A stretch of 64,000 bases of DNA from assembly GCA_963924555.1 (NCBI GenBank), contig OZ004594.1, positions 1,705,563-1,769,562 on the forward strand, read 5' to 3'. The DNA comes from Crambe crambe (taxonomy: Eukaryota > Porifera > Demospongiae > Poecilosclerida > Crambeidae). Positions within the stretch are counted from its first letter, which is position 1; each line of letters opens with the position of its first letter. The notes under the pieces are model-generated. The model saw only the letters and a program-made list of their open reading frames with translations. It did not search any database and was not told the DNA's origin. This document shows positions 1-61,943 of this stretch, one piece after another. Both the position numbers and the translations under genes were made by a program.

Positions 1-1690
1 AACGGTAAAGATATGCCCTGACCATCAGAAAGAACTCGTGTTTTATTGCATTTCGTGTACTACCTTGGTCTGCCAAGACTGCATTGCTAGTGAGCACGAA
101 GAACACGACTACTTGGTGCCAAAGGAACGCACACCACGAGAAGAGCAAACAGATCCAAATTTTAAATCAATCAGAAAAGAAGAAAAAGATTTAGAAAATC
201 TTACATTTGGCGTGAGGATTCGAATCGAAGAAGTGAAAGAGCAGGGAAATCATGTGATTAAGAAGGTGAAGGAGGAAATTAAAAAGTTGCAAGAAGCACT
301 GGAAGAGAGGAAAGCTGAGTTAGTGGATGAAGTTGAACAGCTGGTGAAGGAGAAAGTTGATACTCTCTCATTTCAGCAAGACCAGCTGGAAATGCTGAAG
401 AACCAAGTCAAATTTGCCTACAAGAGCATACAGAATGGAACGGAGGAAGACATCAAGACTACTATTGACGAAATTTCATCAAAGAGTCGAAAGATTAAGG
501 AATTACCAGAAATAGAAGCAGATTTATGCTTTGAATCAAAAGAGCTCCTTACCGGGTGTCGACAGTATGGACAAATAAAAGTGAATCCAGCTGACCCTTT
601 GAAATCTTATGCCGAAATTGATGCAGTTAAAATAGCAATCTTGAATGAAGAAACCACACTTTCTGTATATGCATTGAACAAGGAAGGCAAGAAGAATATC
701 TACACATCTGCAAGTACAGATAAATTTACTAGCAAAGTGGTTGCCAGTGGCAAAATTATCGAAAGCAAAGTGGAGAGAAAACTGGGCACAAATGAGTCCC
801 TAGTTATATTTACATCTAATGTCCGTGGGATAAACCAGGTAGTGGTCAAGATGAACGAGGAAAATATCCGAAATATCCCGTGCCCAGTGTACATCTACAC
901 TCCTACCCCTTCCAATACGATCAAAGTTCAGTGTCCAAACATGATAGCAGTTACTGCAGAAAGAATAGTAATTGCCGGAGACGCGTCAGAACATGTTAAC
1001 ATTTACTCAAAAGAAGGTAACGTAATACATTCCTTTATGATTAAAGGGAAAAAAAATCCAGGCCCCAGAGGATTAGCAACTGATGGTGAATTCCTCTTTA
1101 TAACGGATAAAACGAATAACTGTGTGATAAAATACGACCTTGAAGGTAACTTCATCAAATCTGTTGGCACCAGAGGAAACAAACAATTGGAATTCAGTGG
1201 TCGTTGTGGTGTTGCAGTTGACAAGAAGACCAAAAGAGTTTACATAGCCGACCAGTACAACAACAGAATTCAAGTGCTGGATTCTGATCTCAATTTCCTC
1301 CACATGTTCGGTACAAGAGGTTATCAGGAAAGAGAATTCGACCGTCCACGTGATGTAGCAGTGGCTGATAATAGCACTGTCTATGTAGCCGATACGAACA
1401 ATGATCGTGTACAAGTCTTTAAAGGCAGTGGAGAATATATCAGAGAGTTCGGCAGTGATCAGCTTTCTGCACCTGCAGGAATATGTGTCGACTCAAATGA
1501 CCATGTATTGGTTGCTGATCATGATAACCATCGCATATGCGTGTTCAATCCCGAAGGAGAGTTCCTCTTCTCATTCGGCGAAAGTGGAAACAAGCCAGGA
1601 GAGTTCACAGATGTTTATGGCATAGCAGTTGATAGTGATGGAGTGATTTACACAGCTGACTTTGGTAGTGATCGAGTACAAATTTTCTAA
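1..1690 (+). CDS. B-box/coiled-coil/filamin/NHL protein, 5'-partial
   Basis: This is a long open exon already open at base 1, read in the frame starting at base 2. Its beginning is outside the window. It opens inside a B-box zinc finger (CPDHQKELVFYC...CQDC...H...H). A charged coiled coil of about 120 residues follows, then a filamin/ABP280-type immunoglobulin repeat (about bases 570-900) and a C-terminal NHL beta-propeller of about six repeats (VYIADQYNNRIQVLD-type) ending at TAA 1688-1690. No RING is visible. By analogy with the gene at 17174 it probably has short upstream exons encoding a CARD-like domain. TRIM-NHL proteins are usually scaffolds, ubiquitin ligases or RNA binders; without a RING a ligase role is doubtful. 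The part visible is intact. Confidence 0.85.
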   Translation, partial: TVKICPDHQKELVFYCISCTTLVCQDCIASEHEEHDYLVPKERTPREEQTDPNFKSIRKEEKDLENLTFGVRIRIEEVKEQGNHVIKKVKEEIKKLQEALEERKAELVDEVEQLVKEKVDTLSFQQDQLEMLKNQVKFAYKSIQNGTEEDIKTTIDEISSKSRKIKELPEIEADLCFESKELLTGCRQYGQIKVNPADPLKSYAEIDAVKIAILNEETTLSVYALNKEGKKNIYTSASTDKFTSKVVASGKIIESKVERKLGTNESLVIFTSNVRGINQVVVKMNEENIRNIPCPVYIYTPTPSNTIKVQCPNMIAVTAERIVIAGDASEHVNIYSKEGNVIHSFMIKGKKNPGPRGLATDGEFLFITDKTNNCVIKYDLEGNFIKSVGTRGNKQLEFSGRCGVAVDKKTKRVYIADQYNNRIQVLDSDLNFLHMFGTRGYQEREFDRPRDVAVADNSTVYVADTNNDRVQVFKGSGEYIREFGSDQLSAPAGICVDSNDHVLVADHDNHRICVFNPEGEFLFSFGESGNKPGEFTDVYGIAVDSDGVIYTADFGSDRVQIF

Positions 1691-2074: not shown

Positions 2075-3453
2075 ATGGCTTCCAGCATCGCAACTAACAA
2101 GGCTACCAACAACTATAATACTGAATACACAACTCTGCTGCGCTGCACAGCAGAACTCACTTCAGAATTATCTGCAGATGCTCCCTCTGTTTCGGCAAGA
2201 CTGTTAGCTCAGGGGTTAATCCCACAGGCATTGCACGGCTCACCAAAAGCCAGTGAACTGGTAGAAAAAGTCACCTCAAAAGTGAAAACATTTCCAGAAA
2301 ATTTTGAAGTATTTGTTGGCATCCTCAGTGAGTTTCCCTGGCTTCAAGATATTGCACAGTTGATTCGTAAAACATAATGATGTCAAAGAAGATGAGAAAA
2401 AGGTGAACTCAGGCTAGCCATAATACTCAGTCTAAAATTATTTTATATAGCTATCACCACCACAGAAATTGAAAGATGGAGCAAGTGAGGAGCAAATTTC
2501 CCAGTTGATTCATAAAACATCTGGAGATCTTGAACAAGATAAGGAAAAGGTATATAGCTAGCACATGCATGTTTGTTGATGTTATTGTTGTTGTTGTTGT
2601 TGTTGTTGTTGTTCACTTTTTAAATAGGAAGTAATATCACCAGATTGTGATGAAGCCAAAGGTAGAATCCAATGATGCATACAAGTTTGTGGCATGCAAT
2701 TTTAGTAATCAATTATAATTATTGCAGATGGACTTGGTGAATCAAAGCAAATGCCCCAGTGTAGTAGTAGAAAAAGACCTTCAAAGAGTGATGAGATCGA
2801 GGGTAATGGCTATAGCACACCATGTATGATGCAGCAGCTTACACTTTTTATCAATCCACATGTTCATGCTTAACAAAGGGGAGGGGTAATACACATGTAT
2901 GTGTCATGGGGTATATAGCTATGAGTCCATAATATTAGTCCTTGTTGTATATTTGTACTATTATCAATGGATTTATTTTGTAGGAAAAAAGAGAGTAGCT
3001 AAGATGACATGTTCCCAACATCACAAGGAACTCATAGGTTACTGTGCCACATGTAGTATCAAGATATGCCAAGACTGTATTGATGGAGAGCATTCTCAAC
3101 ATGAGTACTTCATACGACCCAAACCTAAGGAAGAGATATGCAAGTTATATGCAGCACCTGAAGAGAGAAGAAAGGAATTGCTGGCATGTGTAGACCGGGT
3201 AGTGGAAGAAAAAATGAACTTGCTTAAATTTCAGAAGGCTCAGTTGGAGAGTTCATGCACTCAGATAAAAAGTTGCATAGACCTTATATGCAAGACCCAA
3301 TCAAACGGGGGAGAAGAAGATATAAGGACCATTGGTGGTATTTTATCAAGAATTCAAAAAGTTGACAAAGCACCACAACAGAAAGCAGATGCTTTTTTCG
3401 AATCAACAAAAGACCGAGACTTCGTTAATAAATGTCTACAGAGGTTGAAATAA
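2075..3453 (+). pseudogene. Truncated CARD-like + B-box + coiled-coil gene of the cluster
   Basis: Exon 1 (ATG 2075 to about 2402) encodes a helical domain of about 100 residues like the one at 17174 (LLRCTAELTSELSADAPSVS, then SEFPWLQDI). It resembles a CARD of the death-fold superfamily. In-frame TAA 2375-2377 follows RKT, while a +1 frame (NDVKEDEKK) continues to a GT donor at 2403, so a small indel is likely. Further exons are visible at about 2466-2550 (acceptor ccacag), 2728-2803 and 2983-3453. The last carries a B-box (CSQHHKELIGYC...CQDC...H) and a shortened coiled coil, stopping at TAA 3451-3453. Filamin and NHL domains are absent from this reading frame. It is either a decayed gene or a short CARD-B-box-coil product. 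Confidence 0.65.
2583..2612. repeat. (TTG)n microsatellite
   Basis: About ten TTG/GTT triplets in an intron of the truncated CARD-TRIM locus. Confidence 0.9.
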
Positions 3454-3490
3454 AGATAGAAAGTCATATGTCCTAGCACTTATATTTTGA

Positions 3491-3747
3491 TAAAGGAAAA
3501 AATATTTATATAAAAGAGAAGTAGGGATGGCTGTGTGTGGTTCAAAAAAGTTCAGCAAATGAACTTCAGTCAAGTAACCCCTTACCCATCACCAACTACA
3601 AGCCAACTATTCCTCACTCCCATGATGAGATATAAAGGGAGTGAAGTAGGAATAGTTACCTCGTAGCTGGTGATGGGTAAGGGTTGAACTTCGCACACAG
3701 CCATCCCTACTTCTCTTTTTTATTTAGAATAAATATTTTTTCCTTTA
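3491..3747. mobile_element. Foldback (MITE-like) element, 257 bp
   Basis: The two halves are near-perfect inverted copies. The left half starts TAAAGGAAAAAATATTT and continues GAGAAGTAGGGATGGCTGTG. The right half is its reverse complement, ending AAATATTTTTTCCTTTA. The arms also share CTTACCCATCACCA. There is no coding capacity. It lies just after the truncated coiled-coil exon, in sequence derived from a 3' flank. It looks like a non-autonomous inverted-repeat transposon; no clear target-site duplication was found. Confidence 0.75.
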
Positions 3748-4062
3748 CTTGTTCATCATCTTTTTTGTTGTATTGACACTTGTATTAATTATTGTTGAGA
3801 TAATGATTCATGTACTGAGTGAGTGAGCACAGTATGAGTGAGATTCTTGACTCATTCAAATTGCCCAGGTATAATTGGCAAGTATGTTTAAGCTTGCTTT
3901 CTCTCATAATGTGCATGTCTACAAAGGTTGAACTGTAATCTCAGAGAAAGGCAATCCAGTTTTCATGGCAACATATAATCGGAGAGGCCATGAACATAGA
4001 TATCAAAGCGATTGAATTTATGGTCTGACATGTGACTTTGATGAACATTTCTTCATATTCAT

Positions 4063-4827
4063 TCTGAAGATAAGGTAGTCGTAGTGGGAGACTCTGCCAA
4101 ACATGTTAACATCTATTCTAAAGAGTGGGAGCATATTGGTTCCTTCAAACTTGAAGGAGAAAAACATCCAAATCCTAAAGGAGTATCGATTGATGGTAAA
4201 TTCCTATTTATTACTGATAAAAACAATCACTCTGTTTCAAAGTACACCTTTGAAGGTTACTGCATCAAATCTGTCGGTACCAAGGGAAGCAAGCCATTGG
4301 AATTTAATGGCAAATGTGGAATTGCAGTAAATAAAAGAATGGGAAGAGTTTACATAGCAGACCAATACAATAACAGGATCCAAGTGCTGGATTCTGATCT
4401 TGAATTTGTGACCATGTTCGGATCCAAAGGTCAACTAGAAAAAGAGTTTGATAAGCCTCATGATGTAGCAGTTGCCAACAATGGTACCATCTATGTAGCA
4501 GATTCAAATAACAACCGTATACAAGTCTTCAAAGACAATGGAGAATATATCAGAGAGTTTGGAAATAATGACCTCTACTCACCTACAGGAGTATGCGTAG
4601 ATTCCAATGGCCATGTATTGGTTGCTGATCATGATTACTACCGAGTATGTGTGTTCAACCCCAAAGGAGAGTTCCTATTTTCATTTGGTGAAAGCGGGGA
4701 CGGCCTAGGGGAGTTTGTCGACCTTTATGGCATAGCAGTCGATAGTGATGGAAAAATATACACTGCTGATTTTGGCAGTGATCGTGTGCAAATTTTTAAA
4801 CTGGTTACCATTATAGCCTTGCTATAG
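4063..4827 (+). pseudogene. Orphan NHL beta-propeller fragment
   Basis: The open frame (ATG 4084, TAG 4825-4827) encodes only the C-terminal NHL propeller: four to five YxxDxxNNRIQVF repeats, 247 residues. Homology to the gene at 17174 begins abruptly at GAAGATAAG (about 4063), corresponding to about 18644 there. The upstream bases match intergenic sequence, not a filamin repeat. Its normal stop has been lost by a change in the run TTTTTAAA, so it reads 12 residues further (KLVTIIALL). It is probably the severed 3' end of the locus at 2075, separated by a recombination junction. A separate transcript cannot be excluded. Confidence 0.7.
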
Positions 4828-6093: not shown

Positions 6094-6195
6094 TTGCATG
6101 ATGGTCACATGACTCTACCTCATGCTGAATTAATTGCTGTATGCATTATGTGTAATGAATATAATATCCTGATCCTACCAAGTCAGAAAAATTTT

Positions 6196-7706
6196 TTTTG
6201 ATACTGTGATACATGTGAATTCAAGATTTGTGAGGACTGCATTGATGAAGAACATAGTAAACATAATTACTTAGTACCACCTGAACAGAAGGACACTGAG
6301 TCTACTTCAGAGCTAATCAAAAAAGCATTAGCATGTAGTCTATCTGATGTGAAAGATATTAAGAAGGTAGAGAGGAAAAGGGAGAAAATGTGAAAGTGAA
6401 ATTAAAAATTTAAAAACAACACTTGGAGAGAGGTTGCTAACACAAGTAGATAATTTAGTGAAAGAGAGATCAGCTGGAAATGCACCAGGATCAAGTTCAA
6501 TCACATTATTGACCATGCTTGCAAGAATTTATTAAAGAAAAGAAAGAGCACGGCCACCATTGATGATGCTTTATTATCTAACAAAAAATGCCTCAAGTGA
6601 AACCTGATGTTCACTTTGAATCAACAAAATCTCTTGACCACATGTCGACAGTATGGACAAATGCTGACCCTAAACAATCCTATGCTGCTGAAGGTGTTAG
6701 AGCAGCAAACCACAATTCCAATATACACAGTGAATAAAGATGGCGATGAGAATATTTATACAACCAAAAATACAGATAACCTTACCAGCAGAGTGATTGC
6801 CAGTGCTATCGAAATCCAAAGCCATGTGGAAAGAAAAGAGGGAACAAATGAATCCCTGGTTGTTTTCAAATCACACATCCATGGAATGAACTGTGTACAA
6901 GTAAAGGTGAATGGAGAATACATCAAAAATATTCCTTGCGTTGTATACGTCTACAATCCTGTTAAATGTCCTGATATGCTAGCAGTGACTGAAGATAAGA
7001 TGGTAGTAGTGGGAGACTCTACCAAACATGTCAACACCTATTCTACTAAGTCGTGGGAGCTTATCAGTCACTTCAAACTTGAAGTCCCTGAAGGAAAAAA
7101 AAATCCAGGAATATCGACTATTGATAAATTCCTATATATTACCGATAAGATCAATAACTCTGTTTCAAAGTATAACTTTTGGTCACTGCTTATAATCTGT
7201 CGGTAAGAGGGGAAACAAGCCATTGGAATTTAGCGGCAAATGTGGAATAGCAACTAACACAAGAATGGGAAGAGTTTACATAGCAGACCAATACAACAAC
7301 AGGGTCCAAGTGCTGGATTGGATTCGTTACCATGTTCAGATCCAAAGGTCATCGAGAAAGAGAGTTTGACCAGCCTCGCGATATAGCAGTGGCTAACGAT
7401 GGTACCATCTATGTATCAGATTCAAACAACAACCATATACAAGTCTTCAAAGATAATGGAGAATACATCAGAGAGTTTGGAATTGACAATCTCTACTCAT
7501 CTGCGGGAGTATGCGTAGATTCCAACAACCATGTGCTGGTTGCTGATCATGATAACCACCGAGTGTGCATGTTCAACCCCAAAGGAGAGTTACTATTTTC
7601 ATTCGGTGAAAGTGGGGAATTTGTCGACCTTTATGGCATTGCAGTCGACAGTGATGGAAAAATATACACAGCTGACTTTGGCAGTAATCATGTGCAAATA
7701 TTTTAA
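6196..7706 (+). pseudogene. Decayed B-box/filamin/NHL paralogue
   Basis: This copy is closest to the gene at 17698-19379 over its whole length. The B-box remnant (GAATTCAAGATTTGTGAGGA, about 6218), the coiled coil with frame breaks (TGA around 6391-6393), an open filamin-NHL segment (6607-7206) and a second NHL segment (7332-7706) are in order but not in one frame. A frameshift near 7190-7210 and a deletion near 7320 split the propeller. There is no CARD-like exon upstream; a homologous flank precedes it. It is a host-gene pseudogene from tandem duplication. Confidence 0.8.
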
Positions 7707-9871: not shown

Positions 9872-12800
9872 TTAGTTTTTTCTGTCTTTTCTATAAATTT
9901 TCTTTTGTAGAGGGTTGTCACTTTCCAGAAATAATGGCATATCTTTGTAATACTTTCCACTATGGTGTATAGGTGCATGATCATGACCAGCATCAACTGT
10001 GCTTTTACACATACATTTCGCCCTTGCTGTTGTGTAGTTGACACTATCCAACTTATTTCCACTCCAATACTTGAACTGGGCAAAAAGTGTTTCTACTGCA
10101 CTTCCTGACATGCGCAAAGGAACCAAGTAGTATCCTGGATAACGATCCAGGAAATTTTCACAGAATCCCCTAAATCCAAATACGTCAATACGTAGATTGT
10201 CCCAAGCTATACATGTAATAGTTATTAACCAAGCGCTAGGTTTGTAGTCAATTATAAGCACGAGGCCCGAGGGCGAGTGCTTATAATTCACTACAAACCG
10301 CACGCGCGCGGTTAATAACTATTTTATAGCCCGCGCGAGTGTACTACGCATGCTCAGTGCTTCTGTCTCTATAGCGATGTTACTTTTTGGCTGCTAACAA
10401 GAATATGGCCATCCCACTTCAACGTCGTGATTCATACGGTACCGAACTATCTTTCAGTCTATAACCCACCCACTCACTGTGCTTTAACTTGTTCGCGTAA
10501 GGTAGGGGCACAGAGTCATAATTATGGTTGGAGCTGAATGGCAAGTAGGGCAGCTAGTGCAGAATACGAGCCACGCTGTTACAGCAGCTCGCAAGTTCTG
10601 CCTTTTATGCTGGCTACTCTCTGAAAAGCTTGTTGGGTTTGAATGTGGAATGTGGTCAATGAATATCTTAAATCTCCTGTTTCTCATCAGCTCCCTCATT
10701 GATTTTTGCCAAAATTGAAAAACACAAACAAAACTTTTTCTCAGTCTAATCATAAATAGCTAATAGAGAGACTCATTGTGAGTAATTTGTGACAGCTGCT
10801 TAAGTTAGGCAACAAAAAAAATGCTCTTTTTAATGGCACACACACTGGCTAGTTAGCAGCTTTATGTAGACCAAGTTAGCTAGGCTGGCTAGCTATTAAA
10901 ATAATCTGGCTACATTACTCTGTGCAGCTGGAAAGTCCTCGTGTTTTTGTTTTTGTTTTCGCATGCAGCATTGGATTTTTCATATTTTTGTGATGAGAAA
11001 CAGGAAATTTAATTGGTTTGGCCTAATATTAAAATTCTTTTCTGAGAGTAGTTAGTATAAGGACAGAACTCTATACTGTCACATACTCACCTTTCAGTCT
11101 GGTCACAACTCCTTAAAAGTGCAATATCAACTTTGCAGAATCTATATCTAACTTTTCCCTGTAAACACCACCCCAGGCTACAATTACATGCACTGTATCA
11201 CATTTATAAATCCATGTAAATCGGTCTGTTACCATGGCAACGGGCTATAAAAAATATTATATATAATTATAGGTCACTATAACCAGTATGTAAGAATACT
11301 TACTTTGCCATGAAATAAATTTTTTTTGTTGAGGGTCAAGAAAGTTGAAGTCTGCATCTTTTAAGGGGTATTATCAGGATACATGCATGGTTACCTTCAT
11401 CTATAATTGATTCCATCCATTTAGAAAAAAAAGATAAACCCTTCTCAATGTTGGTAAATATTTCACTTTCTTTACTACGAATCTTTGTGTGAGATAGAAG
11501 ACCCCTCTCAAATAATTTATTACATGCTTCAAGGTATCTTAAGGTGCATCGAGTAGCAAATGCATCTTCTGGTGGTGGTGACTGCGATACATGATTAAAT
11601 AGTTCAGTTAGAACCTCTTCCTGCTATAATCATGTAGTCATGTCAAATAAGTTACATATTATACTCAGTGTTTCCCCTACATGGCATTAATAAGTCTGTC
11701 CTCTATTCAGTACAGTTATGATAAGTAATCGTTTACCAGGAGATAGTACTACTGTATAAGTGGCATATACCTGCATTATTTTGGCAGGGGAAACATTCAA
11801 TTTTGTCCAGGCATCTCATAAAATATATGCTTCTCTCAATCGGGGTACCATTCTAGCTCTTCCCATACTGCGTCTGGTACATTCCCGCCGATACATACTA
11901 ATAATAGCCTCCCATCCAAAGTTGGCTCCACCAATAGAGAATGATTTAGTCCCCCCATTTTGTGAGGAATATAAAGCGTTGATCATATTTTAAGCTGAAT
12001 GAAAACAAAGAATATGGACTTATAGTGCAAACTTTTGATGTTAAATTTTAATATTTAAAACTTAATTGTGACTACATACCTGGTGACTAGGGCAAATAAG
12101 CCAATGAATAATCGCTGTAGGATTAAAAGGATTCCTGAAGAAAGGTTCGACTTTATTCTTTCCATAAGCACCATGTACACCAGTGGTTCCTTTAATCACT
12201 GAAACGTTGGCAGCAGCTGCATCACATACTAGTAATGATGTTTTGAATCCATAGAGATGAAGGATTTTCACTGTCTCTAGAATACATGAGAGTATGAATT
12301 TGCTTTCTAATGGATCCGAGCTGGTGAAATATGGACCAACCACATCAAAAGGGGATGTCAAATCTCTCCAAAGGAATTGTAGGATATATGAGGTTTGCTT
12401 TGTTTTATCGTCATCTTCCAAAAATCTATACACATCATTAAGGGAGGCCAATTCCTCACGAGTCATAGCAAGTCCTATCAGCTGATGGCTACGCGAATTC
12501 CATATCAAATGGCACACAACTTTTACCTCATCAAAGATTACAACACCATCACCTTGAGGAACTGGTTTTTTATCAACAATTCTCTGTAGTTTAAATTCCA
12601 AAAAACGTTTTGATTGCTCAGCCATTCGATGATGTAAAGCCTCTTTAAGAGAAACTATAAACCCTAATAATATTAATTATACCTGGATCATCACGAAATG
12701 CTCCAGTATATGCCTGCAGTGTAGCCCGTGAAGGTAACTGGATGAGCTCAAAATTTTTCAGAGCATCATAAGCAGATGGACTTCTTGTGTAAACTGCTAA

Positions 12801-13899
12801 GGCCAGTCTGATAGTGATTAAACTCCAGCGATTTCCTCGGTTACCAGTAGCTAATGAATAAAGAAGGAAATTGACACAGACTATTTTTTTGTGTTTTTTT
12901 TTTTGTTGTTGTTGTTGTTTTTTTTGTTTGTTTTTTGGGGGGGGGGGGGATTAATGTACCAAACAGAGTTAACTAACCATTTCTTTCCTGATCATCTCTG
13001 AACTCTTTCTTTATATTTTGCACATCATTTTTCCAGATAGCCCGGACGGCTTGTCCAACCCCTTTCCCATCACCTTCTGTAAGCAAATCATCTAAAGTTT
13101 TAGATCCATCAATTTGTTCAACTACAGTACACATCTGACCATGTTGATCTTCATTCAACGTTACATCTGCATGGCCATATTTCTTTAAAAGCTTTTTATC
13201 ATTTGCCCTTTCATAGTTAACATTCTGACGCTTTTTCTTTAAGCTTTGTGGCGAGAGGTATTTTTCTGGAAAATGGGATCCAGATTTTAATCGATTTTCT
13301 TTATCACTTTGTGTCAAAGTGGCTGCCTTTTTTAAACTTTGTTCCAGATCACTTTTTAGACGCTTACATGAAGAACATAACACAGCACTCATGTCTTTTT
13401 CAAATATACTGGCATTCCTTGAAAGCTGATGCCAAAGAAGACATTTATGTGAATCAATACGGGAAATTGGATGTGTTTGTCGTCTTACACTCTTAAGATC
13501 ATACCGAATTATACTGAAATATTTGGTTTCATACACATCATTATTAATTCCAGGGCAAAGCTTAAAAGAAGAGTTTATATATATCTTTCCACATAGTTTA
13601 ACAAAATCTTCAATATTGCTAATGTTACCTTTCTAAAAAAGGACCTGAAAATCGTAACCTCCATCTTCAGCAACAATAATCCGAACTCTACTTATCATAC
13701 CTATTGGAGGATGATTATGGAGGTCTTTCCTTGTGCAGACAAGGAATTTTTCAGCAGAACTCAAACTATACAAAAGTTCTGGGAAGCGATTTTTCCCTGC
13801 CTCTAATAATTGAGCTAGAGAAGGAGGAGAAATTTTTTGCCGCTTCGGATCATGATCAACAACCGAACCCGTTACAACTCTTTTGCCAAGGACCGACAT
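9872..13899 (-). pseudogene. P-element/THAP9-like transposase, decayed
   Basis: The gene reads on the - strand in about seven exons: 12978-13899, 12683-12850, 12080-12654, 11771-11994, 11395-11620, 11304-11357 and 9872-10206, about 830 codons in all. Splice phases agree between most exons. Recognisable blocks are SLITIRLALAVYTRSPSAYD, an RNase-H-like core (VVIFDEVKVV...GLAMTREEL...LVCDAAAANVSVIKG) and a C-terminal SGSAVETLFAQFKYWSG block typical of P-like transposases. No THAP zinc finger was seen. Breaks: TAG 13633-13635, a one-base deletion near 11985-11990, and TGA 11816-11818 (probably CGA to TGA). The last intron holds a secondary insertion. It is likely inactive. Confidence 0.75.
10218..11252. 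mobile_element. Inverted-repeat insertion in the last transposase intron
   Basis: A hairpin at 10218-10322 (ATAGTTATTAACC against GGTTAATAACTAT, with GC-rich arms GGTTTGTAGT...ACTACAAACC) is followed directly by a second pair of short inverted repeats, TTTTATAGCCCG at 10322 and CGGGCTATAAAA ending at 11252. Together they bloat an intron that is otherwise short in this gene. No coding sequence is recognised inside. It is probably one or two nested MITEs; boundaries are approximate. Confidence 0.5.
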
Positions 13900-17173: not shown

Positions 17174-19379
17174 ATGGCTAACACTGAATATACTACTCTA
17201 CTTCGCTGCACATCAGAACTCATCTCAGAAATATCTGCAGATGCTCTTTCTATTTCAGCAAGATTATTAGCTAAAGGATTAATCCCAGAGGCATTGCACA
17301 GATCACCAAAGGCCAATGAACTGGTACAACACGTCACCTCTAAAGTGAAGTTAAATCAAGAAAACTATGAAGTTTTTATAAGCATTCTCAGTGAGTTTCC
17401 CTGGCTTGGAGACATTGTGAAGTTAATTCGTGATACATATAAAGAAGTCCAAGCTGAGCAAAAGGTACGTTATTAATAACTAGGGAAATCCAAAGCACAC
17501 ACTGTGTAGTGAGCAAAGCCATAATTTATTACTGAACTCCACCACAGAGCAAGGAACATGAATCTGATGAGAAGGAAAAGTCTCAAATAATTGGCAAAAA
17601 AAGACCCTTATCAACCAACAAATGTCAAGGTTTACCTGAAGGTTAGTATTATTATTTGTTATGGGAAACTTAATGTAAATCGACTTCTTTTTTATAGGGG
17701 CTAAGAAGATGTGTCACGAGCACCAAATGGACCTCCTCTCATACTGCAATACATGTGAAACCAAGGTTTGTGAGGACTGCATTGATGGAGAGCATAGTCA
17801 ACACGATTACTTGGTACCACCAGAACGGAAGGACACTCCGTCTAGCTTAGAGCAGATCAGAAAAAAAGAGAAAGAATTAGCATATAATCTATCTGATGTG
17901 AAAGCTAAAATTAAGAAGGTGGAGGAAAAGAGAGAAAATGTGAAAGACGAAGTGAAAAAAGAAATACATGATTTAAAAACAACACTTGAAGAGAGAGAAA
18001 AGGGATTGCTTGCACAAATAGATGATTTAGTGAAAGAGAAACTTGAAACTCTCCAATTTCAACAAGATCACTTGGAAATGCAACAGGATCAAGTTAAAAC
18101 GTATATTGATTTCACTCGCAAGGGATTATTAAACAATAGAAAGAGCACAGCCACAGCTGATGAAGCTTTGTTGTCTAAGATTCAAAGAACGATTGAAATG
18201 CCCCTAGTGAAAACTGATTTTCATTTTGAATCAACGGATCTCCTGACCACATGTCAAAATTATGGACAAATACGAGTTAATCCAGCTGACCCTACAAAAT
18301 GCTATGCTGAAGGTGTTAGAGCAGCATACCTGAATAAAGAAACCACAATTCCCATATACACATTGGATAAAGATGGCAATAAGAATATTTATACATCCAA
18401 ATGTACAGATGAGCTTACCAGCAAAGTGGTTGCCAGTGCCACTGAAATTCCAAGCCGTGTGGACAGAAAAGAGGGCACAAATCAATCCCTGGTTGTTTTC
18501 AGATCACACATCCGTGGAATGAACCATGTACAGGTCAAGGTGAATGGAGAAAATATCCAAAATATTCCTTGCCTCGTTTATGTCTACATTCCTACTCCAA
18601 CAAAAAAGATTACAATTCAACGTCCTTATATGCTAGCAGTGACTGAAGATAAGATAGTCGTAGTGGGAGACTCTGCCGAACATGTCAACATCTATTCTAA
18701 AGAGTGGGAGCGTATTGGTTCTTTCAAACTTGAAGGAAAGGAACATCCCAGTCCCAAAGGAGTTGCAACTGATGGTAAATTCTTATTTATTACCGATAAA
18801 ACCAATAACTCTGTTTCAAAGTACACCTTTGATGGTGACCGGATCAGCTCTATCGGTAAGAAGGGAAGCAAGCCATTGGAATTTAATGGCAAATGTGGAA
18901 TCGCAGTAAATAAAAGAATGGGCAAAGTTTACATAGCAGACCAATACAATAACAGGATCCAAGTGCTGGATTCTGATCTTGGATTTGACACCATGTTTGG
19001 AAAGAAAGGCAATCAGGAAAGAGAATTTGATAAGCCTCGCGATGTAGCAGTGGCCAACAATGGTACTATCTATGTAGCAGATGCAAACAACAATCGTGTG
19101 CAAGTCTTCAAATATAATGGAGAATACATCAGAGAGTTTGGAAATGATGACCTCTACTCACCTGTCGGAGTATGCGTAGATTCCAATGATCACGTGTTGG
19201 TTGCTGATCATGATAATAACCGAGTATGTGTGTTCAACCCCAAAGGAGAGTTACTATTTTCATTTGGTGAAGGCGGAGAAGGACAAGGGAAGTTTGTAGA
19301 CCTTTATGGCATAGCACTCGACAGTGATGGGAAAATATACACAGCTGACTACGGCAGTAATTGTGTGCAAATATTTTAA
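17174..19379 (+). CDS. CARD-like/B-box/coiled-coil/filamin/NHL protein (688 aa)
   Basis: Three exons with matching phases: 17174-17464, 17548-17641 and 17698-19379. Residues 1-97 form a helical domain with CARD-like spacing (LLRCTSELISEIS...LLAKGLIPEALH...FEVF-like NYEVFISILSEFPWLGDIV). A polar linker follows (98-128), then a B-box (CHEHQMDLLSYC...CEDC...H...H, about 132-170), a coiled coil (about 180-310), a filamin repeat (about 335-435) and an NHL propeller (about 450-688). RING and B-box 1 are absent. In animals CARDs assemble signalling filaments and TRIM scaffolds oligomerise through coiled coils, so an intracellular sensor or adaptor is a reasonable inference. All domains are open and intact. 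The start lies just downstream of the right end of the 8.55 kb transposon. Confidence 0.8.
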
Positions 19380-19697: not shown

Positions 19698-21902
19698 ATG
19701 GCTGACAGCAAACCTAAGGATGTTGTTGCTAACAAAGCCCTCCAGAAGCTGAAAGACCAGATCACCTGCTCCATCTGCTTGGATACCTACTCTGACCCCA
19801 AGGTCCTTCCCTGCCTCCACATCTACTGCCACAAATGCCTAAGACAGCTACAGCTTCGCTCCATTGATGGACACACAATACAATGTCCAACATGTCGAAA
19901 AGAATCGATCGGAGAGGCAGAAAACTTACCACCTGCTTTCTTCATAGGTCACTTCATTGATGGCTATAACACAATGAGGAAAGCACTGCAGTCAGAGAAG
20001 GTCTATTGCGATAAGTGTCCTGATTCTGAAGCAGTAAGCTTCTGCAAAGACTGTGGAAACTTCATTTGTGATTTATGCCAGATGGTGCATAAGAAATGGC
20101 CAGAGTATTCCAGTCACGTGATTGTGAATATGGATGATATGAAAGAAGATGTGGTCAAACATGTTGTGCCAAAAAAAGAGTTTAAAACATGCTCCCAGCA
20201 TCAAAAGAAGCTTAAGATCTACTGTGAGACTTGTCAAATTCTGATATGTCGAGATTGTATCGTTGGGCAGCATCGTCCACACACTTACCAATTGGTGCAA
20301 GAGGTCGTTGCTGAACATAGAGGGTGTATTCTGTCTCGATTGGAACTTATTCGACATCAAGAGGAGGTCTTGGGGGCTGCTCTAGCTGGCATTGGGGCTC
20401 GGATCGGGGAGGTGAGAGGACAGGGGGAACAGATAAAACGGGAAGTGGAGGAAAAGATACGCCAGTTGCATGGAATACTTGAAGGGAGGAAAGTGGAGTT
20501 ACTTGCACATGTGGATCAGCTTGTCAAAGAAAAGGCGAAATCTCTCTCGTGTCAGATGGACCAGCTAGAAATGTTACAGACTCAAGTATCAAGCTGCATC
20601 CAGTTCACCCACGAGAGTCTACGAAGTGGAACGGATGGAGACATTGTCAGCATAAAAACACCAGTCATCCAACGCATTGATGAGATCCTGAACACTATAA
20701 CTGAAGCCAAAAAAGACCCACAGCAGAAAGCTGACATATACTTCAAATCGACGCAGTATTTAGTATCAGAGTGTCAGCAGTTTGGCCACATAAAGATAAA
20801 TCCAGACGAAATCTCGAAATGCTACGTGGAGTCTGACAGGTTCAAAACGGCAGCTATGAATGAAGAGATCATGATTCCCATCTTTTCATTGAACAAAGAT
20901 GGCAGCAAAAGCTTACACACCCCTGCCAATGCTGGCATGCTCACCAGCACACTGGTTGCAAAGGGTGATGTCCTTCCTAGTCAGGTGATCAGGAAAGTAG
21001 AAGAAAATACATCTATGGTTGCATTTAAGCCTGTCGTCCGAGGAGCGAATCGTGTACATATCAAGGAGAACGGAGAAGATATCGAAGGCAGTCCTTTTCC
21101 TGTGTACGTCTATAATCCTACCCCTACCACAACTATCGAAATCAACAAACCTAACTCCATTCAGATAACTGATAAAGAGCTGATAGTTGTAGGAAGCACC
21201 GAGCATGTTAGCATCTACTCCAAGGATGGCAAGACACTCAGGTCTTTCAAGCTGAAAGGAAAAGAGCTGCCGCAGCCTTATGGTTCTTCTATTGATAGCG
21301 AAGGATTCCTGCTGATCACAGACAAGTCGAATTCCTGTGTGACTAAGTGTACGCTGGATGGTATCATTATCACATCCGTGGGTAAGAAGGGAAACCAACC
21401 GCTGGAGTTCAATGGAGTTTGTGGCATCGCAACGAACAAAACAACCGGGAAAGTTTACATAGCTGATCGCAATAACCACAGAATCCAAGTGCTGAACTCT
21501 GACCTTACATTCAGCCATTTTCTAAAGAGAGGGCTCCACCAACCACATGATGTGGCAGTGGGTGGTGATGGCAGTGTGTATGTATCAGATATTTACTACA
21601 ATCAGATACGAGTCTTCAGTCCCAAAGGTGAATATATCAGAGAGTTTGGAAACAGAGAAAACGACAATGGTAATTTGAAATGTCCCACAGGGCTATGCGC
21701 CGACTCTAATAACAATATTTTTGTTTCCGATCATGGCAACCATCGGATCTGCATGTTCGATACCAAGGGAGAGTTCTTTTTTTCATTTGGCAAGCGTGGA
21801 CAAGAGCCAGGAGAGTTTGCAAGCCCTTACGGCATAGCTTCTGATAGCGAAGGGGTGATACATGTAGCCGACTACGGGAACAATAGAGTCCAAATCTTCT
21901 AA
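19698..21902 (+). CDS. TRIM-NHL protein, RING/B-box1/B-box2/coiled-coil/filamin/NHL (734 aa)
   Basis: Single open exon. The RING finger has C24-C27-C39-H41-C44-C47-C63-C66 (CSICLDTYSDPKVLPCLHIY, then CPTC). B-box 1 lies at about 103-141 and B-box 2 at about 165-195 (CSQHQKKLKIYC...CRDC...H). A coiled coil spans about 205-310, a filamin/ABP280 repeat about 365-470, and six NHL repeats run to the C-terminus (VADYGNNRVQIF). This is the complete architecture of the TRIM2/TRIM3/TRIM71 class, whose members are E3 ubiquitin ligases or RNA regulators. Codon use is more GC-rich than in the RING-less neighbours, suggesting it is the older, more constrained member. The assignment to one vertebrate orthologue is not possible from the sequence alone. 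Confidence 0.92.
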   Translation: MADSKPKDVVANKALQKLKDQITCSICLDTYSDPKVLPCLHIYCHKCLRQLQLRSIDGHTIQCPTCRKESIGEAENLPPAFFIGHFIDGYNTMRKALQSEKVYCDKCPDSEAVSFCKDCGNFICDLCQMVHKKWPEYSSHVIVNMDDMKEDVVKHVVPKKEFKTCSQHQKKLKIYCETCQILICRDCIVGQHRPHTYQLVQEVVAEHRGCILSRLELIRHQEEVLGAALAGIGARIGEVRGQGEQIKREVEEKIRQLHGILEGRKVELLAHVDQLVKEKAKSLSCQMDQLEMLQTQVSSCIQFTHESLRSGTDGDIVSIKTPVIQRIDEILNTITEAKKDPQQKADIYFKSTQYLVSECQQFGHIKINPDEISKCYVESDRFKTAAMNEEIMIPIFSLNKDGSKSLHTPANAGMLTSTLVAKGDVLPSQVIRKVEENTSMVAFKPVVRGANRVHIKENGEDIEGSPFPVYVYNPTPTTTIEINKPNSIQITDKELIVVGSTEHVSIYSKDGKTLRSFKLKGKELPQPYGSSIDSEGFLLITDKSNSCVTKCTLDGIIITSVGKKGNQPLEFNGVCGIATNKTTGKVYIADRNNHRIQVLNSDLTFSHFLKRGLHQPHDVAVGGDGSVYVSDIYYNQIRVFSPKGEYIREFGNRENDNGNLKCPTGLCADSNNNIFVSDHGNHRICMFDTKGEFFFSFGKRGQEPGEFASPYGIASDSEGVIHVADYGNNRVQIF

Positions 21903-33143: not shown

Positions 33144-39265
<6,122 letters not shown>

Positions 39266-57411: not shown

Positions 57412-61943
<4,532 letters not shown>

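Follow-up and report, generated by a model that had tools for sequence, protein, structure and literature searches.

A predicted CARD-like head on a RING-less, tandemly repeated TRIM-NHL-like gene family of the sponge Crambe crambe

In the parts of the cited articles available to us, pyrin (TRIM20) is described as a TRIM protein with a PYD in place of the RING (PMC4455283), and this PYD recruits ASC (PMC6698799). Large lineage-specific expansions of proteins that join Death-like and TRADD-N domains to varied C-termini are reported from Amphimedon and from oysters (Crassostrea); in oysters, these C-termini include B-box and beta-propellers, and TRIM ligase fusions occur in another TRADD-N clade (Kaur et al. 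2021, PMC8195603). No description of a CARD-B-box-NHL protein was found in the open literature accessible to us, with subscription journals and preprints outside the scope of the search. Here, we analyzed a 64,000-nucleotide stretch of the Crambe crambe genome (contig OZ004594.1; hereafter, the window) that carries a gene of this layout, for which an original prediction from the sequence had proposed a CARD-like domain fused in phase to B-box, coiled coil, filamin repeat, and NHL propeller. We consider it reasonably probable that a local TRIM-NHL gene exchanged its RING for a CARD-like head and was copied in tandem, and that its protein acts as pyrin does in outline.

The window gene runs from an ATG at 17174 to the last stop base at 19379, and the junctions 17464/17548 and 17641/17698 give a single open frame of 688 amino acids plus stop, as the in-phase join had been foreseen (feature coordinates are given in Table 1). 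This is one of two passing arrangements among 36 GT/AG combinations, the second having the same junctions with the acceptor shifted 6 bases downstream. All eight of what we take to be the Cys/His ligand positions of a B-box are present by eye in the single B-box, and the propeller comprises five NHL repeats by Pfam count, or six blades if judged by its resemblance to TRIM NHL structures. The protein thus combines the B-box and long coiled coil (here a predicted helix) of TRIM (RBCC) proteins with the filamin repeat (slightly under cut-off in the window gene) and NHL propeller that follow the coiled coil in TRIM-NHL proteins; its C-terminus is NHL instead of B30.2. Between head and B-box there is only the 31-amino-acid linker exon and no TRADD-N, and exon 3 has no TRADD family at E ≤ 5.

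Exon 3 has no Pfam match to RING, and a Cys/His pattern search, which recovered the neighboring RING gene as a control, found no RING pattern upstream of the six exon-1-bearing genes (386 to 9464 bases each) or in the introns of the window gene. Because no RING was found by Pfam (exon 3) or by pattern (upstream), we class the window protein as TRIM-like and RING-less, as is TRIM20. The predicted lack of a RING therefore holds, but the contrast originally drawn with known TRIM-NHL proteins was incomplete, since it overlooked the pyrin precedent, the Amphimedon and oyster expansions, and a B-box/NHL open frame elsewhere in the genome (L008, at C9:803044-806127; 604 amino acids) that has no RING or CARD match within the frame.

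The assignment of exon 1 as a CARD-like death fold is supported by modeling and profile comparison. Its predicted structure is a six-helix death fold for which CARDs ranked above all other folds. A profile of 17 close relatives matched CARDs at 83.3% and Death at 0.1%, and a profile of all 46 family members at 94.8% and 0.8%, respectively, the Death set used being shallow. Pfam CARD matches at E ≤ 1 occurred in 10 of the 46 head-family members (best, 1.8e-4), and a bridging sequence, L056 (C20:5033738-5033953, minus strand), holds a CARD above the Pfam cut-off and also matches the head-family profile. A designed PPR protein that headed the PDB list of the wide profile was discounted, its match consisting of six repeats at about 5 bits apiece.

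Several results weigh against a CARD identity. Exon 1 itself has no match to Pfam CARD (PF00619) at E ≤ 5, and because the curated score is not reached, we label it CARD-like rather than a Pfam CARD. Its sole Pfam match is a sub-cut-off 7TMR-HDED, and the top two Foldseek rows, both the CARD of ARC, are not significant by Foldseek alone. Against PDB, phmmer gave RAIDD at a non-significant E of 1, the close-relative profile found no significant CARD, with unrelated helical proteins outranking RAIDD (E 0.27), and the second row of the wide-profile list was a non-CARD, Pst1 (0.0041). Some chance Pfam matches of comparable strength also occur (FumaraseC_C). These results would suit a six-helix bundle that merely resembles death folds without kinship to them, which we nevertheless regard as very improbable given that CARDs specifically rank first for the predicted structure, that the head profile matches CARDs and not the Death set, and that L056 links the head family to Pfam CARD.

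Searching the genome with exon 1 gave 70 matches at E ≤ 1, including itself; six of them lie in a tandem array on C17. When overlapping loci were stitched, the array comprised five intact genes encoding 688–706 amino acids (the window gene and paralogues G1 to G4), one decayed copy with exon 1, and one relic. The decayed copy is the second locus that the original prediction had placed at 2075. The five intact genes have in common a phase-0 donor behind exon 1, a middle exon of 26–31 amino acids (the best-scoring candidates by a home-made splice score), and an identical split codon into exon 3, which rules out a chance join of CARD-like exon to B-box and upholds the earlier view of a family. 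Exon 2 of the window gene is similar by eye to that of G3, and third exons are 57–93% identical over the alignment. The B-box is above the Pfam cut-off in all four paralogues; the filamin repeat clears it only in G2 (28.3 bits), falls short of it in G1 and G3, and has no entry at E ≤ 0.01 in G4.

In the window gene, the exon-1 frame meets a stop three codons past the donor, so that intron retention would yield a predicted CARD-only product, as if exon 1 were a separate CARD-only gene and the B-box exon a separate RING-less one. The phase-matched splice sites and middle exon of the five genes argue against such a division, as do G1, G2, and G4, where exon 3 has its first Met only well past the B-box, so that upstream exons are needed to make the B-box; we give two separate genes hardly any credence. 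Across 10 pairs, the ratio of nonsynonymous to synonymous substitution (dN/dS) was 0.17–0.46 for exon 1 and 0.14–0.20 for the rest, showing that exon 1 is constrained like the remainder, with exon-3 ratios being rough because synonymous divergence exceeds 1 in many pairs. Synonymous divergence of the window gene from G2 and G3 was 0.49 and 0.57 in exon 1 vs. 1.51 and 1.33 in exon 3; the lower exon-1 values may reflect gene conversion of the head exon.

Compared to the RING neighbor (19698..21902), the fused genes retain sequence from immediately before the second B-box onward. This neighbor is the nearest exon-3 relative among the matches listed, fused genes and relic aside (41% identity vs. 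29% for the next). The likeliest course of events, judged from these sequences, is that the RING and first B-box disappeared from a RING-type TRIM-NHL member of the local array, that a CARD-like exon and short linker exon were captured directly before the second B-box, and that the fused gene then multiplied in tandem. In a tree of 47 heads, the six C17 heads share one open fork with four C9 and C6 heads, which is compatible with, but no proof of, a likely single origin of the fusion. Because the protein beyond its head is closest to the neighboring RING TRIM-NHL gene, we infer that the fusion arose independently of pyrin.

TRIM coiled coils dimerise. In the proposed mode of action, dimers or larger clusters would form through the coiled coil, perhaps with the B-box, and a ligand or client would bind to the filamin-NHL end. 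Clustering would gather the N-terminal death-fold domains, which would then recruit partners carrying a domain of this type, possibly with an immune or cell-death output. The sensing and filament assembly put forward in the original prediction are likewise hypothetical. We put such an activation-type adaptor ahead of inhibition or plain scaffolding. Inhibition would make the head a decoy or brake by which a RING-less protein blocks assembly of other CARD proteins, as CARD-only inhibitors do. ARC, whose CARD heads the Foldseek list, is an apoptosis repressor, and the window protein, in which no RING was found, retains no known enzyme domain; selection, however, maintains the entire coiled coil, filamin repeat, and propeller, which is beyond the needs of a simple decoy, and we consider inhibition unlikely. 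Slightly less likely still is a role as a scaffold or as a regulator that binds RNA, in the manner of other TRIM-NHL proteins, with the head serving for docking and giving no clustering signal. RNA-bound NHL structures exist for Lin41, TRIM71, and Brat, but the five propellers are net acidic by a simple count of residues (28–33 Lys+Arg vs. 34–37 Asp+Glu; RING neighbor, 28 vs. 29), a weak argument against RNA, and relatives of the head adjoin Death, TRAF, and caspase-type exons.

Among 10 open frames flanking nine such relatives, three were above the Pfam cut-off (Death in L036 and L037; a TRAF zinc finger in L022). On one strand at L098 (C20:132800-136400), a distant head is followed by at least two Ig domains above the cut-off (E 3.7e-9 and 1.5e-12) and Peptidase_C14 (E 2e-20); at L099 (C1:541500-545900), also on one strand, a caspase frame of 343 amino acids precedes a head of the exon-1 family and a Death match under the cut-off. 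These orders are exons sharing a strand, known from DNA only and not as single transcripts. MALT1 has the order death fold, Ig domains, and paracaspase; the MALT1-like order belongs to L098, a relative elsewhere in the genome, and not to the window gene. Because its relatives adjoin Death, TRAF, Ig, and caspase-type exons, the head belongs to a signaling-type domain family of this genome, and candidate partners bearing the same head exist there. A more specific version of the adaptor, an independent invertebrate counterpart of the pyrin inflammasome, is doubtful but conceivable: NHL-clustered CARD assemblies would recruit CARD/Ig/caspase-type (MALT1-like) or CARD-Death proteins toward NF-kB-like or cell-death signaling.

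Outside the C17 array, none of 64 head matches lay within 10 kb of an NHL or B-box match in the lists, which were compared by eye; the NHL list held the best 150 of 1503 candidates and the B-box-part list the best 132 of 320, the B-box of the decayed copy not being among them. In L020, L022, L025, L029, and L032, the head is followed by a common region of about 250–300 amino acids (alignment A6) with no Pfam name above cut-off, which could correspond to the TRADD-N-type unit described by Kaur et al. At L097 (C12:6012823-6018822), a C12 head (L015) has downstream of it a long unnamed frame and a Lipase_3 match under the cut-off.

Within the window, the exon-1 search found no exon 1 for the relic at 6184..7706. 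Transposase-like remains separate the decayed copies from the window gene (12062-13632, minus strand; TNP-like RNase H, E 1.4e-9, 12065-12676), and long simple repeats encoding RE/LS runs occupy 38823-39221 and 60184-60803.

Table 1 Coordinates of the window gene, its domains, and related loci (window positions unless C17 is given)
Feature	Position	Strand	Description
Window gene, exon 1	17174..17464	+	97-amino-acid CARD-like six-helix domain filling the whole exon; phase-0 donor
Window gene, exon 2	17548..17641	+	Charged linker, 31 amino acids, split codon at end
Window gene, exon 3	17698..19379	+	B-box, coiled coil, filamin repeat, NHL propeller, stop
Single B-box	17703..17810	+	Pfam PF00643, E 1.4e-7, above cut-off
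TRIM-type coiled coil (predicted)	17847..18131	+	Helix of ~95 residues, AlphaFold model H50-144
Filamin/Ig-like repeat	18282..18569	+	Pfam PF00630, 25.1 bits vs. cut-off 26.9; beta domain in model
NHL propeller	18591..19376	+	Pfam E 1.6e-35, above cut-off
Intact paralogues (G1 to G4)	C17:1695959-1698361, 1699140-1701369, 1702031-1704316, 1704942-1707252		With the window gene, the five intact genes
G4, third exon	1..1690	+	Intact paralogue; exons 1-2 immediately upstream of the window
Decayed paralogue, exon 1	2075..2374	+	75% identical, two stops at its end
Decayed paralogue, third exon	2890..4827	+	Broken
Second decayed B-box/filamin/NHL relic	6184..7706	+	6 stops in matched part
RING-B-box-B-box-filamin-NHL neighbor	19698..21902	+	Single open frame

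If the proposed exchange is true, a TRIM ligase head was traded for a death-fold oligomeriser outside vertebrates on a different chassis, then retained and multiplied, and pyrin, a human inflammation sensor, would be one instance of a repeatable design. It would also indicate that heads which, like the window head, fall below the CARD cut-off escape Pfam-based immune surveys. Unlike the TRIM-NHL proteins TRIM2, TRIM3, TRIM71/Lin41, and Thin, the window protein has no RING that we could find and bears a CARD-like head; it has one B-box, whereas the RING neighbor has two. Similar to the Amphimedon and Crassostrea proteins, it joins a Death-superfamily unit to one of varied C-terminal sensor or adaptor domains, but it lacks TRADD-N between head and B-box, its head is CARD-like whereas that of the oyster proteins is DED, and the available text of PMC8195603 does not name B-box/NHL for the C-termini of Amphimedon. 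The closest likeness is to pyrin/TRIM20 (MEFV), in which, as far as the available parts of the sources describe it, an N-terminal death fold replaces the RING and is followed by linker, B-box, coiled coil, and a C-terminal beta domain (PMC4455283, PMC6698799), the linker being 60 or 280 amino acids in TRIM20 vs. a 31-amino-acid exon and a few further residues in the window protein. With a head predicted to be CARD-like where pyrin has its PYD, and with filamin and NHL at the C-terminus where pyrin has B30.2, the window protein would work like pyrin in outline without being a member of its family.
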